NCBI RefSeq assembly: GCF_007994135.1
Contig: NZ_VLKF01000001.1
Coordinates: 3,782,001-3,846,000 of the forward strand
Length of the DNA stretch: 64,000 nucleotides
DNA from: Modestobacter roseus
GTDB lineage: Bacteria; Actinomycetota; Actinomycetes; Mycobacteriales; Geodermatophilaceae
Direction: 5' to 3'
Both the position numbers and the translations under genes were made by a program. Below are positions 54,967-60,831 of this stretch, piece by piece. How positions within the stretch are numbered: position 1 is the first letter of the stretch; every line of letters starts with the position of its first letter. The notes beneath the pieces were generated by a model. It saw only the letters and a list, made by a program, of their open reading frames with translations, ran no database searches and was not told the DNA's origin.

Positions 54967-55716
54967 TCAGCGGCCGAGCTCGCCCCGGGCGACCGAGACG
55001 CCGGAGTGGGTCGGGTCGCCGTCCAGCGGTTCGATCGAGACGTCGACGACCGGGTACTCGGCCAGGTCGACCCCGTCGGGCAGCGGCAGGGACGTCGCGC
55101 CGTCGGTGACCACGCCGACCTGGACCATCCCCGAGACGTCGGGCCGCAGCAGCCAGACCTCGTAGTAGCCGTCGGCGGGCGCCGGGGCGGCGAGCTCCAC
55201 CTGCAGCGAGCGGTGGCCGCCGGCCTCGCGCACCTCGGCCCGGCCGGAGGCCTCGACGCCGTCCAGCGGGTCCAGCCCGGCCGTGGCGACCACGGTGCCG
55301 TCACCGTCACCGTCGCGGAGCACGGCCACGGCGCCGGCGCCGACCACCCCGCCCACCAGCAGCGCGGCGGCCACCGCGAGCCAGCGGCGGGCCGGTGCGC
55401 CCCGCCGGCGCAGCGGCACCACGTCGGCACCGGAGGAGGCGGCCGGCAGCGGCTGGACGTGGTTCGGCGGGGGCACGGAGGCCGGGGTGGCCTCGACCCC
55501 CGTAGCCGCGGCGATGGCGGCCCAGACGCCCGGCGGCGGCTGCACGGGTGCACCGGGTGCCGCGAGCGCGGGGACGGCGAGGACGTCGACGCTGCGCTGC
55601 AGTGAGGCGACCTCGGCCTGGCACTCGGCGCAGTCCGCCAGGTGCGCCTCGTCGTTGGGCGGCAATGGCTCGCGGAGCGCGGCCAGCGCCAGCTGCTCAG
55701 GATCGCAGTGCGGCAC
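54967..55716 (-). CDS. Anti-sigma factor, RskA-like
   Basis: 249 residues. An N-terminal anti-sigma zinc-finger-like segment (DEAHLADCAECQAEV with His-x3-Cys-x2-Cys) inhibits the sigma factor; a membrane helix (RRWLAVAAALLVGGVVGAGAVAVL, about 110-133) follows, then an external RskA domain (GYYEVWLLRPDVSGMVQVG; PVVDVSIEPLDGDPTHSG). Its start overlaps the sigma gene by 20 nt. It would hold the sigma factor at the membrane until cleaved on a signal, as RskA does to SigK. Confidence 0.9.
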   Translation of the reverse strand: MPHCDPEQLALAALREPLPPNDEAHLADCAECQAEVASLQRSVDVLAVPALAAPGAPVQPPPGVWAAIAAATGVEATPASVPPPNHVQPLPAASSGADVVPLRRRGAPARRWLAVAAALLVGGVVGAGAVAVLRDGDGDGTVVATAGLDPLDGVEASGRAEVREAGGHRSLQVELAAPAPADGYYEVWLLRPDVSGMVQVGVVTDGATSLPLPDGVDLAEYPVVDVSIEPLDGDPTHSGVSVARGELGR

Positions 55717-56344
55717 CGTCCACCTCCAACCGGTCTCGCAGGCGCTCCAGGGTGCGCCTGATGTGGCTCTTCACGGTGCCCAGCGGGATGCCGGTGCGGG
55801 CCGCGATCTGTGCGTGGGTCAGGTCTTCGAAGAATGCGAGCTCGATGATGCTTCGTTGCGGCTGGCCGATCCGGTTCAACTCGCCCAGCAGGAGCACCCG
55901 GTCGGCCACCTCGGCGGCCAGCTCGCTGCCCGGTGCCGCGGTCGGCGCGGAGCGGGCCTCGCTCGCGGCCGCCTCGGTGGAGCGGCGCTGCCGTTCGCGC
56001 TTGGCCCACGTGTCGGCGATCTTGTGCCGGCAGACGCCGACCAGCCACGCGGGCAGCGGTCCCTGCTGCGGGGAGTAGCCCGCCCGGCCGGTCCAGGCGC
56101 TGATGAAGACCTGCTGGGTGACGTCCTCGGCGTCGGGACCCGGGCCGAAGGCGCGCACCGCCATGCCGTGCACCTGTGCCGCCCACCGCTCGTAGGCCCA
56201 GGCGAGGGCCTGCTCGTCGCCAGCGGCGAAGCGCCGGGCGACCTCGGCGTCGTCCGGCTCGACGCCCTGCTGCGCCGAGCCCTGGGTGGTGGGCACGTCA
56301 GCGACCGTACCGAGGTCGGGCAGCCGGGCGGCGAGGAGGCTCAT
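55697..56344 (-). CDS. ECF RNA polymerase sigma factor, SigK-like
   Basis: 215 residues. Region 2: FAAGDEQALAWAYERWAAQVHGMAVRAFG, PDAEDVTQQVFISAW; region 4: LNRIGQPQRSIIELAFFEDLTHAQIAARTGIPLGTVKSHIRRTLERLRDRL. The ATG overlaps the sortase stop by 4 nt. Its operon is DUF4397, sortase, sigma, anti-sigma. Conserved TGCATCC sequences about 62 nt upstream of both DUF4397 genes could be its -35 element, which would make the system self-activating. A truncated copy of its first nine codons lies at 58056-58081 at the edge of a tandem duplication. Confidence 0.9.
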   Translation of the reverse strand: MSLLAARLPDLGTVADVPTTQGSAQQGVEPDDAEVARRFAAGDEQALAWAYERWAAQVHGMAVRAFGPGPDAEDVTQQVFISAWTGRAGYSPQQGPLPAWLVGVCRHKIADTWAKRERQRRSTEAAASEARSAPTAAPGSELAAEVADRVLLLGELNRIGQPQRSIIELAFFEDLTHAQIAARTGIPLGTVKSHIRRTLERLRDRLEVDGAALRS

Positions 56345-57030
56345 GGCAGCGGTTGGGCAACGACGACCACGTTGTCGCGGTAGCTGCGCGTCTCGGCGTC
56401 GAACGGGCCGCCGCAGGTGACCAGCACCAGCCGGGGCGGCCCCTCGCGGTTGAAGATCGAGTCCAGCGGCAGGGCCTGCTTGGTGATCAGCTCGCGGGAG
56501 ACCACCTGCCAGCGGGTCTCCGCGCCGGTCGCGCCGGTGACCACCACGACGTCGCCGGTCTGCGCGTCGCGCAGCGGGAACAGAGCGCCCAGGCCCTGTT
56601 CGCGGTCGTCGACGTGTCCGGCGAGGACCGCGGAGCCCTCGTCCCCGGGAACCGGGCCGAAGCGGTACCAGCCGACGCGGTCCACGTCCTCGGGCAGCTC
56701 CATCTGACCGTCCGGGGAGACGCCCACCGGGTCCAGGGGCGCGTCCACCCCCTGGGCCGGGAGGCTGACCCGGACCGGCGCCGGCACCGGCGCGGGCGGC
56801 GTGGGCGCGGCGTCCCGGGTGGGGACCGGCGGGAAGGCCGGCGCAGACGCCGTCGGCGGCGCCGCCCCCGAGGGGGACGGCACCGCCGACGGCGGTGGTG
56901 CGTCGAGGGCCTGCTCCACCGTGCTGCCCGTGGCCGGGTCGGGCCGGGTGACCGCCCAGGCGACCGGTGTCCCGATCGCCAGGGTCAGCCCCAGGACCAT
57001 CCCGGCCACGGGCGCGCGCACGGTGGGCAT
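56341..57030 (-). CDS. Class E/F-like sortase, copy A
   Basis: 229 residues. N-terminal helix (VAGMVLGLTLAIGTPVAWAV), long Pro/Ala/Ser linker (about 35-85), sortase barrel with His139 (AGHVDDREQGLG), Cys206 (LVTCGG) and Arg215 (TRSYRDN). It would process or anchor the DUF4397 protein encoded 17 nt upstream in the same operon. Its protein is identical to copy B at 58078-58767. The stop overlaps the sigma start by 4 nt. Confidence 0.87.
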   Translation of the reverse strand: MPTVRAPVAGMVLGLTLAIGTPVAWAVTRPDPATGSTVEQALDAPPPSAVPSPSGAAPPTASAPAFPPVPTRDAAPTPPAPVPAPVRVSLPAQGVDAPLDPVGVSPDGQMELPEDVDRVGWYRFGPVPGDEGSAVLAGHVDDREQGLGALFPLRDAQTGDVVVVTGATGAETRWQVVSRELITKQALPLDSIFNREGPPRLVLVTCGGPFDAETRSYRDNVVVVAQPLP

Positions 57031-57047
57031 CCTCGGCTGCGGGTCGG

Positions 57048-57866
57048 TCAGACCCGGCTGGTGGCGTACTTGCGGGCGGCGAAGGCCGCGCCGGCGAGGC
57101 CGACGACGGTCAGGCCGACCAGCGGTGCCGGGATGCCCTCGTCAGCGGCCAGGCCGGCCGAGCCACCGGGGACGCCGGTCGGGGCGGAGGCCCCGGCCTG
57201 CACGGTCTGGGTGGCGAGCTCGTAGCCGGCCTCCTCCGAACCCCAGGCGTAGACGATGGTGTTCGCGCCCTCGGCCACCGTCACGTCGGCCGGGCCGATC
57301 GCCACGGTGTCGGTGTCGGCGACGACCACGTCGGCGCTCACCGATCCGGCGGGGACGGTCAGCGACTCCTCGTTCGGGTTGGTCAGCCCGTCGATGACGA
57401 CCTCGCCACCGGCCCGGACGTCGACGGCGGGCGCCGCGGCCACGTGGCGCACGGTGAGCCGGCCCTCGCCCGCGGGCACCGCGGAGGTGTCGTTGACGAA
57501 CGGGGTCAGCGCCGGCTCGCCGGCCTCGGTGAGGTGGGCGACCACCGTGGCGTTCGCGCCGGCCGGCACCGCGACGTCCATCGCCTCCAGCAGCGGGTCG
57601 CCGGAGGCGTCCGCGGCGTCGGCCGGGTAGAGCGCCAGGTCGTAGTCGCCGGCGGGCAGCTCGAGCGGGCCGGCCAGGGTGCCCGGCTCGAAGTCGTCGA
57701 TCAGCCGCTCGCCGTTGGCGTACACGTCGACCGGGAGGTCCGGGACGCCGTGCAGCACCGAGACGGTCGCGGTGTGCGAGTCGGCCAGCGCGGGCGTGGC
57801 CGCGAAGAGCAGGGCGAACGCGCCGGTGGCGCCGGCGGTCAGGGCGATCGGGCGGGACTTGTTCAC
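57048..57866 (-). CDS. DUF4397 secreted protein, copy A
   Basis: 272 residues. A signal peptide (IALTAGATGAFALLFAATPALA), two DUF4397 immunoglobulin-like repeats (VSVLHGVPDLPVDVYANGE and LTVRHVAAAPAVDVRAGGE), a VPGG stretch, then a C-terminal helix (PLVGLTVVGLAGAAFAARKY) and basic end. That end has a sorting-signal layout without LPxTG. GTG start 57866 with GGAAGGA upstream. First gene of the sigma operon. It differs from copy B mainly between residues 40 and 85. Confidence 0.85.
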   Translation of the reverse strand: MNKSRPIALTAGATGAFALLFAATPALADSHTATVSVLHGVPDLPVDVYANGERLIDDFEPGTLAGPLELPAGDYDLALYPADAADASGDPLLEAMDVAVPAGANATVVAHLTEAGEPALTPFVNDTSAVPAGEGRLTVRHVAAAPAVDVRAGGEVVIDGLTNPNEESLTVPAGSVSADVVVADTDTVAIGPADVTVAEGANTIVYAWGSEEAGYELATQTVQAGASAPTGVPGGSAGLAADEGIPAPLVGLTVVGLAGAAFAARKYATSRV

Positions 57867-57927
57867 GGTGACGTTCCTTCCGTTGGAGTGGACTGTCACC
57901 CCGTTCTTCCGGCCCGCCCCCGCTCTT

Positions 57928-57950
57928 GGATGCACCGCATCTCGGATGCA
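57928..57950 (-). promoter_or_regulatory. Two TGCATCC motifs, candidate ECF promoter of the sigma operon
   Basis: On the minus strand TGCATCC occurs at 57950-57944 and 57934-57928, 16 bp apart, the nearer one 62 nt before the GTG at 57866. The same heptamer lies 61 nt before the copy B start. It is a candidate -35 for the SigK-like factor (mycobacterial SigK prefers CCATCC). No clear -10 was seen. Confidence 0.45.
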
Positions 57951-58055
57951 CTCGTCGTGCGATCCGCAGGTCGAGCTGCGCGACGGTGGCGTCTGCGTGC
58001 GGGGGAGACGCGCAGCACCGGGCCGGTGGGCACGTGAGTGCCCGTGCGGGTGCCC

Positions 58056-58081
58056 GGCAGTCGGGCGGTGAGGAGGCTCAT
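58056..58081 (-). pseudogene. Remnant of the sigma gene 5' end
   Basis: Directly after sortase copy B, the minus strand reads MSLLTARLP, matching the sigma start MSLLAARLP (56344) with the same 4-nt overlap, then departs. It marks the duplication edge and shows that copy B once preceded, or was copied from, a sigma gene. Confidence 0.75.
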
Positions 58082-58767
58082 GGCAGGGGTTGGGCAACGA
58101 CGACCACGTTGTCGCGGTAGCTGCGCGTCTCGGCGTCGAACGGGCCGCCGCAGGTGACCAGCACCAGCCGGGGCGGCCCCTCGCGGTTGAAGATCGAGTC
58201 CAGCGGCAGGGCCTGCTTGGTGATCAGCTCGCGGGAGACCACCTGCCAGCGGGTCTCCGCGCCGGTCGCGCCGGTGACCACCACGACGTCGCCGGTCTGC
58301 GCGTCGCGCAGCGGGAACAGGGCGCCCAGGCCCTGTTCGCGGTCGTCGACGTGTCCGGCGAGGACCGCGGAGCCCTCGTCCCCGGGAACCGGGCCGAAGC
58401 GGTACCAGCCGACGCGGTCCACGTCCTCGGGTAGTTCCATCTGACCGTCCGGGGAGACGCCCACCGGGTCCAGGGGCGCGTCCACTCCCTGGGCCGGGAG
58501 GCTGACCCGGACCGGCGCCGGCACCGGCGCGGGCGGCGTGGGCGCGGCGTCCCGGGTGGGGACCGGCGGGAAGGCCGGCGCAGACGCCGTCGGCGGCGCC
58601 GCCCCCGAGGGGGACGGCACCGCCGACGGCGGTGGTGCGTCGAGGGCCTGCTCCACCGTGCTGCCCGTGGCCGGGTCGGGCCGGGTGACCGCCCAGGCGA
58701 CCGGTGTCCCGATCGCCAGGGTCAGCCCCAGGACCATCCCGGCCACGGGCGCGCGCACGGTGGGCAT
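58078..58767 (-). CDS. Class E/F-like sortase, copy B
   Basis: 229 residues, identical in protein to copy A (His139, Cys206, Arg215), with a few silent base changes. It follows DUF4397 copy B by 17 nt and ends in the sigma remnant, so this operon has no sigma or anti-sigma genes of its own. Confidence 0.87.
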   Translation of the reverse strand: MPTVRAPVAGMVLGLTLAIGTPVAWAVTRPDPATGSTVEQALDAPPPSAVPSPSGAAPPTASAPAFPPVPTRDAAPTPPAPVPAPVRVSLPAQGVDAPLDPVGVSPDGQMELPEDVDRVGWYRFGPVPGDEGSAVLAGHVDDREQGLGALFPLRDAQTGDVVVVTGATGAETRWQVVSRELITKQALPLDSIFNREGPPRLVLVTCGGPFDAETRSYRDNVVVVAQPLP

Positions 58768-58784
58768 CCTCGGCTGGGGGTCGG

Positions 58785-59603
58785 TCAGACCCGGCTGGTG
58801 GCGTACTTGCGGGCGGCGAAGGCCGCGCCGGCGAGGCCGACGACGGTCAGGCCGACCAGCGGTGCCGGGATGCCCTCGTCAGCGGCCAGGCCGGCCGAGC
58901 CACCGGGGACGCCGGTCGGGGCGGAGGCCCCGGCCTGCACGGTCTGGGTGGCGAGCTCGTAGCCGGCCTCCTCCGAACCCCAGGCGTAGACGATGGTGTT
59001 CGCGCCCTCGGCCACCGTCACATCGGCCGGGCCGATCGCCACGGTGTCGGTGCCGGCGACGACCACGTCGGCGCTCACCGATCCGGCGGGGACGGTCAGC
59101 GACTCCTCGTTCGGGTTGACCAGCCCGTCGATGACGACCTCGCCACCGGCCCGGACGTCGACGGCGGGCGCCGCGGCCACGTGGCGCACGGTGAGCCGGC
59201 CCTCGCCCGCGGGCACCGCGGAGGTGTCGTTGACGAACGGGGTCAGTGCGGGCTCGCCGGCCTCGGTCAGGTGGGCGACCACCGTGGCGTTCGCGCCGGC
59301 CGGGATCTCCACGTCGTCGACGCTGATCGCGACCTCGGCGGACTCCGGGTCGGCGCCGGCCGGGTAGACCGTCAGGTCGTAGTCGCCGGCGGGCAGCTCG
59401 AGCGGGCCGGCCAGGGTGCCGGCGGTGAAGTCGGAGATGAGCTCTTCGCCGTTGGCGTAGACGTCGACCGGGGTGTCCGGGATGCCGTGCAGGACCGAGA
59501 CGGTCGCGGTGTGCGAGTCGGCCAGCGCGGGCGTGGCCGCGAAGAGCAGGGCGAACGCGCCGGTGGCGCCGGCGGTCAGGGCGATCGGGCGGGACTTGTT
59601 CAC
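58785..59603 (-). CDS. DUF4397 secreted protein, copy B
   Basis: 272 residues, same layout as copy A: signal peptide, two DUF4397 repeats, VPGG, C-terminal helix and basic tail. The first domain differs (GEELISDFTAGT, YPAGADPESAEVAISVDDVEIPAG against GERLIDDFEPGT, YPADAADASGDPLLEAMDVAVPAG), while residues after about 90 are almost identical. GTG start with GGAAGGA. TGCATCC lies 61 nt upstream. Confidence 0.85.
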   Translation of the reverse strand: MNKSRPIALTAGATGAFALLFAATPALADSHTATVSVLHGIPDTPVDVYANGEELISDFTAGTLAGPLELPAGDYDLTVYPAGADPESAEVAISVDDVEIPAGANATVVAHLTEAGEPALTPFVNDTSAVPAGEGRLTVRHVAAAPAVDVRAGGEVVIDGLVNPNEESLTVPAGSVSADVVVAGTDTVAIGPADVTVAEGANTIVYAWGSEEAGYELATQTVQAGASAPTGVPGGSAGLAADEGIPAPLVGLTVVGLAGAAFAARKYATSRV

Positions 59604-59663
59604 GGTGACGTTCCTTCCGTTGGGGTGGACTGTCACCGCTCCCTGTGCCCGGTTCCCCCACAT

Positions 59664-59688: not shown

Positions 59689-60831
59689 TCATTCGGCCAG
59701 CCCGCGGCCCAGCGCGTCGAGGTCAGCCGGGGTCGCGTCGAGGTGCGGCGACACCCGCAGCACCGGACTGCTCAGCTCCGAGCGGGCGCGCTCCCGGCCG
59801 ACGGCAGTGACGACGATGCCGTGCTCGACCCGCAGCCGCTGCACGGTCCCCCGGACGTCGACGCCGTCCGGGGGACGCAGGGTGGTGATCGCCGTCGGCT
59901 CGTCCCGGGGCTCGACCACCGCCCAGCCGCCGCACCCGTCCAGCCGCTCGCGGGTGGCGCGGCCCAGCGCCGCCAGCCGCTCGCGCACCCGGTGCGGACC
60001 CGCGGCCAGGTGCTCGCCGATCGCCAGCACCAGGCCGACGCGGCCGGCGATGTGCGCCTCGCGGGACTCGTACCACCGGGCGTGGTCGACGCCCACGCCG
60101 CCGTCGTCGTACAGCTCGGGGGCGGTCTGGAGGGTCATCTGCGCGGTGACCGACGGCCGCATCGCCAGGAACCCGACGCCTCGCGGGCCGGCCAGCCACT
60201 TGCGCGAGGTGCCGTAGGCGACGTCGGCGGGCAGGTCGCAGTCGACCTGGCCGAGGGCCTGCGCCAGGTCGAGCACCAGCGGGACGCCGAGGGCCCGGCA
60301 GACCGCCGCGATCTCCCGGGCGGGCTGGACGACGCCGCGGTGGCTGGCGACCACGGTGAGGTGGACCAGGGCGGGCGGGTCTGCCCGCAGCGCCCGCTCG
60401 ACCCCGTCGACGTCGGCTCGGCCCAGGTCGTCGGCGGGCAGCAGCACCGGGGTCAGCCCGGCCGCGGTGAACGCGGTGACGGTGTGCCAGTACTCGTTGG
60501 GGAAGAGGGCCACGGTGCTGCCGGCCGGCAGCCGCCACCCGGCCAGCAGGGTGCGCAGCGAGTCCTGGGCGCTCTCGGTGAAGGCGACGTCGGCGGCGGC
60601 CATCCCGACCAGCCCGCCGAGCACCGACCGGCCCTGCTGCAGCAACCCCTCGGCGGCTGCCTCGGCCACGTACCCGCCGAGCTCCGCCTCGTGCCGGGCG
60701 TGCCGCGCCACCGCCTCCAGCACCGCGGTGCTCTGCCGGCTGCACGCCGCGTTGTCCAGGTGCACGCCCGCGGGGCGGGGGCGGGCCGCGCGCCAGGCGT
60801 CGCCGAGATCGGGGTGGGGGAGATCGCTCAC
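59689..60831 (-). CDS. PLP-dependent aminotransferase class V enzyme, EgtE-like
   Basis: 380 residues, cysteine desulfurase/kynureninase fold. HLDNAACSRQS begins the fold; VLDLAQALGQVDCDLP contains the PLP-binding Asp and Gln; Lys ~210 in TSRKWLAGPRGVGFLA binds PLP. That last segment and the overall length resemble EgtE, the C-S lyase of ergothioneine synthesis, but no egtABCD genes are in the window, so this could be a paralogue. TAGCGT (60844-60839) is 7 nt before the GTG at 60831: probably leaderless. Confidence 0.8.
   Translation of the reverse strand: MSDLPHPDLGDAWRAARPRPAGVHLDNAACSRQSTAVLEAVARHARHEAELGGYVAEAAAEGLLQQGRSVLGGLVGMAAADVAFTESAQDSLRTLLAGWRLPAGSTVALFPNEYWHTVTAFTAAGLTPVLLPADDLGRADVDGVERALRADPPALVHLTVVASHRGVVQPAREIAAVCRALGVPLVLDLAQALGQVDCDLPADVAYGTSRKWLAGPRGVGFLAMRPSVTAQMTLQTAPELYDDGGVGVDHARWYESREAHIAGRVGLVLAIGEHLAAGPHRVRERLAALGRATRERLDGCGGWAVVEPRDEPTAITTLRPPDGVDVRGTVQRLRVEHGIVVTAVGRERARSELSSPVLRVSPHLDATPADLDALGRGLAE

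Follow-up and report, generated by a model that had tools for sequence, protein, structure and literature searches.

Class F sortases are known from Actinobacteria such as Propionibacterium acnes and Actinoplanes missouriensis. Their roles are unknown, and A. missouriensis deleted for all four showed no phenotype (PMC13251363). A second point of comparison is provided by the SigK-RskA pairs (ECF19), in which the genes for an ECF sigma factor and an RskA_C anti-sigma factor overlap. SigK pairs control the surface antigens MPT70/MPT83 (PMC7509140). In concerted evolution of tandem paralogues, finally, the flanks are closest within a genome, and a retained segment is closest between species by form. 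The locus described here lies on the minus strand of the window, a stretch of 64,000 nucleotides from the soil/stone bacterium Modestobacter roseus. It is known in kind, as a case of concerted evolution around a protected segment, and unusual in detail: the unit concerned consists of a bacterial surface protein and a sortase, its forms stand in reversed order, and there are signs of import. We consider it probable that tandem units of a DUF4397 gene and a class F-like sortase gene evolve in concert, by conversion or unequal exchange, around a lasting segment with two forms, and that they belong to a probably imported, self-regulated operon.

In the direction of transcription, intact egtE is followed by copy B of the DUF4397 gene, copy B of the sortase gene, nine codons of a sigma gene and an egtE remnant; then come copy A of the DUF4397 gene, copy A of the sortase gene, the ECF sigma gene and the gene for an RskA-type anti-sigma factor. 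We call the segment type of copy B form E and that of copy A form R.

59692-60828, minus strand: intact egtE, for a PLP enzyme of ergothioneine biosynthesis; neighbour on the upstream side (TIGR04343, 451 bits against a cut-off of 400)
58788-59603, minus strand: DUF4397 surface protein, copy B, the upstream copy with the E-type segment (PF14344, 110.9 bits; AlphaFold model; groups with the E-type copies of four relatives)
59304-59483, minus strand: E-type variable segment of copy B, codons ~41-100 (clustered block mismatches; fixed E/R differences)
58078-58767, minus strand: sortase, copy B (PF04203, 63.5 bits; protein identical to copy A; catalytic H139, C206 and R218)
58055-58081, minus strand: first nine sigma codons, a remnant after sortase B (sequence comparison)
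57966-58028, minus strand: frameshifted remnant of the egtE 3' end (nearer to clade X egtE, defined below, than to the intact egtE of the genome)
57906-57933, minus strand: predicted ECF promoter GCATCC-N16-CGGAAG before copy A (motif conservation; genome scan)
57051-57866, minus strand: DUF4397 surface protein, copy A, the downstream copy with the R-type segment (PF14344, 107.5 bits; groups with R-type copies)
57567-57746, minus strand: R-type variable segment of copy A, codons ~41-100 (codon comparison; trees; fixed differences)
56341-57030, minus strand: sortase, copy A (PF04203; class F as best NCBIfam match; catalytic residues)
55697-56344, minus strand: ECF sigma factor, its start overlapping the stop of sortase A (TIGR02937, 77 bits against a cut-off of 42.9)
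54967-55716, minus strand: RskA-type anti-sigma factor (PF10099 RskA_C, 54.1 bits against a cut-off of 29.4)

The sequence-only reading had described a repeated block at an offset of 1737 bp, and copy-to-copy comparison confirmed it: positions 56319-57900 recur at 58056-59637, over 1,582 nt with 63 mismatches. A single 208-nt stretch of the DUF4397 gene holds 47 of these mismatches, and none of 2,000 permutations was as clustered. As had been read, the two sortases are identical in protein, their five codon differences all being synonymous, and nine sigma codons end copy B (MSLLTARLP versus MSLLAARLP). To this we add the frameshifted egtE 3' end behind the sigma remnant; the duplication unit, marked by the sigma remnant, took in the 3' end of egtE as well. 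Near-identical repeats are prone to assembly error, and an assembly fault, chimera or false duplication could in principle produce such a locus. A collapsed or chimeric assembly is unlikely here because the copies differ at many positions and the DUF4397 and sortase copies are divided by unique sequence, in an assembly of two contigs with a completeness of 99.8%. Independent tandem pairs also occur in four other assemblies, and we attach hardly any probability to an error of this type.

Both sortase copies match PF04203 well above its threshold (63.5 versus 26.6 bits) and keep the catalytic H139, C206 and R218. Like the class F sortases of Actinobacteria, they have class F as their best NCBIfam match (NF033748) together with the catalytic H/C/R residues. 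The score of 128.2 bits falls below the curated cut-off of 166, and we therefore use the label 'class F-like'. A further difference is that the sortase gene of the window lies together with a DUF4397 gene and the genes of an ECF sigma factor and its anti-sigma factor. From gene order alone, our guess is that the sortase acts on the DUF4397 protein, a membrane-anchored substrate that it would process at the cell surface. DUF4397 and sortase were not found together in any paper in a literature search.

The two DUF4397 copies clear the PF14344 gathering threshold of 30.6 bits by a wide margin. The protein is predicted to begin with a signal peptide, to fold into two Ig-like beta-sandwich domains and to end in a membrane helix with a basic tail. 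In the AlphaFold model the helix spans residues 257-269, where model confidence is low. A structure comparison found the model to resemble the extracellular domains of PepT1 and PepT2 (Z 14-16). This likeness reflects the common two-Ig-domain fold and says nothing on function. Solved structures searched by sequence gave no DUF4397 relative. A hydrophobic stretch and a basic tail are present at the C-terminus of all 38 DUF4397 proteins compared, and LPXTG, which in an LPXTG-type substrate would stand directly before the helix, is absent from each of these 38 tails. A conserved P-x-G-V motif occurs farther upstream of the helix in 34 of the 38. We also observed that SAPxGVPxG is conserved in the DUF4397 tails of the window copies and of loci L128-L176, in a region upstream of the membrane helix that is predicted to be disordered. 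It is possible that SAPxGVPxG serves as a non-standard sorting motif.

The DUF4397 copies have the same length and differ in 33 codons. The earlier reading had them nearly identical except for residues of about 40-85; the localised variation stands and its range has to be extended to take in the densest part, since the amino-acid differences occupy residues 41-100, are densest at 83-100 and include lone changes at 162 and 184. In the AlphaFold model the variable segment sits in the first Ig-like domain, and its densest part corresponds to the loop 82-92 and the strand 93-100. For trees and identities we defined the segment as codons 37-105, a stretch of only 207 nt. Over these codons copy B shares 89-92% identity with the sortase-side copies of four other Modestobacter genomes (G016-G019) but 77% with copy A. 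Both forms of the segment are found in other species at 86-92% nucleotide identity. All five E copies are set apart from all five R copies by 18 fixed differences, which lie only in codons 37-105.

Phylogenies of the segment and of the remainder of the gene disagree. The segment tree unites the E copies from five species in a single clade (0.999), separate from the R copies, and in it copy A joins the other copies of G016-G019 and the single genes of Modestobacter G006, G002 and G021, Geodermatophilus and Blastococcus. In the C-terminal tree, the two window copies pair with each other (1.0), as do the two copies of G019 (0.993). AU tests rejected the pairing of the window copies for the 207-nt segment (p = 7e-6) and the E clade for the C-terminal part (p = 0.02). 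Paralogues are thus closer than orthologues over the converted tract, and the tree switches abruptly between this tract and the retained segment. Synonymous divergence between copies A and B follows the same division, with a dS of 0.24 in the segment, 0.035 in the C-terminal part and 0.026 in the sortase (Fisher p = 2e-5), that is, about seven-fold higher in the segment than elsewhere. Because selection at the protein level alone would not raise dS, the segment is old, and the flanks, with the sortase, were levelled recently.

These results bear on the view that, after a recent tandem duplication, one surface segment changed rapidly in an adaptive or antigen-like way. The majority of segment differences do alter an amino acid, as such a history would have it. 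Against it stand the raised synonymous divergence of the segment, for which we rejected recent duplication with adaptive change, the occurrence of both forms in other species, and the segment and C-terminal trees with their AU tests. In addition, dN/dS is 0.35 within E, 0.40 within R and 0.83 between E and R, which indicates purifying selection within the forms and is in keeping with a past divergence in protein between two forms that are now conserved, rather than with ongoing hypervariation. No silent donor cassettes for antigenic variation were found, and DUF4397 has only two copies in the genome. With two conserved forms and no donor cassettes, antigenic variation was rejected too, and we regard adaptive change after a recent duplication as extremely improbable. 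The sequence-only reading had proposed recent duplication or gene conversion with a variable segment, perhaps antigen-like or ligand-specific. Conversion holds; recent duplication does not hold for the segment, since E and R are older than at least five species and it is the flanks that were levelled recently. The antigen-like option is not supported, and a ligand-specific difference between the two fixed forms is possible.

Separately, we observed a third segment type (EELxxDF...PAGxDPxS) in the other Modestobacter species, namely G005, G009, G022, G015, G007, G001, G003, G004 and G008. By this comparison the variable segment would have at least three conserved types in Modestobacter.

The named relatives belong to Modestobacter, Geodermatophilus and Blastococcus, and a DUF4397 match was present in 18 of 18 good Modestobacter genomes. 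Among 112 Geodermatophilaceae genomes, tandem DUF4397 pairs are limited to the window genome and G016-G019. In each of these four relatives an E copy and an R copy stand side by side, with a single full sortase; between the tandem copies of G018 and G019 there is a sortase fragment of ~39 codons. The split between segment and flanks recurs in G016-G019, where the sortase between the copies is lost or a fragment, with a flank dS between the tandem copies of 0.05 in G017 and 0.04 in G019, a levelling like that in the window, and of 0.20 in G016 and 0.16 in G018, where it is less marked. We propose that the flanks are levelled again and again, by gene conversion or unequal exchange, and that selection for two different domain faces, to which the conservation of both forms points, keeps the E and R segments apart. 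The pattern suggests two lasting roles and not antigen-like variation.

Gene order sets the window genome apart. In G016-G019 the R copy is upstream and the E copy lies beside the sortase, whereas the window genome has E and then R. Conversion alone does not explain this reversal together with the intact second sortase, and re-duplication or the import of a form is also needed. Either of two routes would make E and R swap places: a re-duplication with a later deletion, or a newly made duplicate that took up one form by import. The reversed order gives weight to a different history, in which the DUF4397-sortase unit was freshly duplicated, independently of the pair in the relatives, and one copy then gained the other segment form when a short tract recombined in from a different strain or species. 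The second sortase is complete and has a dS of only 0.026. The junction holds a clade X-like egtE remnant and a sigma remnant, which the relatives lack between their copies, and there is support for gene exchange among Modestobacter lineages here. Such a tract, however, must end near the same codons as the E/R boundary of four other species, and G016-G019 also combine levelled flanks with a divergent segment, all of which conversion explains alike. We therefore treat fresh duplication as a possible but clearly less probable account than concerted evolution around the lasting segment.

Concerted evolution at this locus was probably accompanied by import. Clade X comprises Modestobacter G016-G019, G006 and G002. 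The sigma codons and the frameshifted egtE end with its promoter region resemble clade X, by up to 96% over 68 nt, and the whole spacer between the copies is 74-78% identical to clade X egtE ends versus 63.8% to the genome's own egtE end. The intact EgtE is 72-78% identical to that of every Modestobacter, and clade X members share ~91% among themselves. The sigma and sortase genes of the window genome fall with clade X, and their grouping with its rpoB neighbours was rejected (sigma p = 0.02, sortase p = 7e-5). For egtE (p = 0.025) and rpoB (p = 0.029) it is the grouping with clade X that was rejected, and the anti-sigma tree decides neither for nor against import. Because the DUF4397-sortase-sigma block and the egtE remnant are clade X-like and egtE and rpoB are not, there is moderate support for the view that homologous recombination brought this block in, with a clade X relative as donor; the direction follows from the egtE remnant being of clade X type.

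The regulatory genes recall the SigK-RskA pairs in the overlap of an ECF sigma gene with an RskA_C anti-sigma gene. The sigma factor differs from SigK in scoring 104 bits with the SigK model, far under the cut-off of 226, and in having a target that is read from a motif alone. This motif, GCATCC-N16-CGGAAG before copy A, is the sole perfect match in the 4.5-Mb window genome. Of 40 loci from several Actinobacteria, 15 have an exact copy ahead of their DUF4397 gene, against 16 exact matches overall in 913 kb. A genome scan for more targets with one mismatch allowed showed no excess (17 matches versus 30 for a control pattern). The motif is thus a candidate single-target ECF promoter, and we infer that the sigma factor, held by the RskA-type anti-sigma factor, would switch on its own operon from it. 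In each of the five tandem genomes the promoter motif is matched better before the R copy than before the E copy. Because the second half of the promoter has been lost from copy B, the two forms may be expressed differently as well.

The cassette of DUF4397, sortase, ECF sigma and RskA-type anti-sigma genes also occurs in Geodermatophilaceae, Agromyces, Labedella, Kocuria, Tessaracoccus, Pseudonocardia and others. We tentatively suggest, with rather low confidence, that class F-like sortases have DUF4397 proteins as their dedicated partners, in a surface module that regulates itself and sorts by the non-standard motif SAPxGVPxG, and that in one Modestobacter clade the DUF4397 protein split into two forms with distinct binding faces, shielded from a conversion that is otherwise active. 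Class F sortases are without a known physiological role, and a conserved cassette with a single surface partner and a predicted single-target promoter would make one directly testable. The E/R pair, for its part, would offer a clean natural bacterial case in which conversion levels all but one domain segment.

Other cassette layouts were seen as well. In Cryobacterium (L164-L173), two DUF4397 stretches lie near each other, downstream of sigma/anti-sigma, and no sortase was detected. In some Modestobacter genomes a second and more divergent DUF4397 gene, ~60% identical, lies ~8-23 kb from the main cassette. These second genes are:

L063, 14453-15277: second DUF4397 gene
L067, 3278-4114: second DUF4397 gene
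L060, 1562-2284: second DUF4397 gene
L061, 1652-2413: second DUF4397 gene

In G005 the second DUF4397 gene has a sortase of its own.
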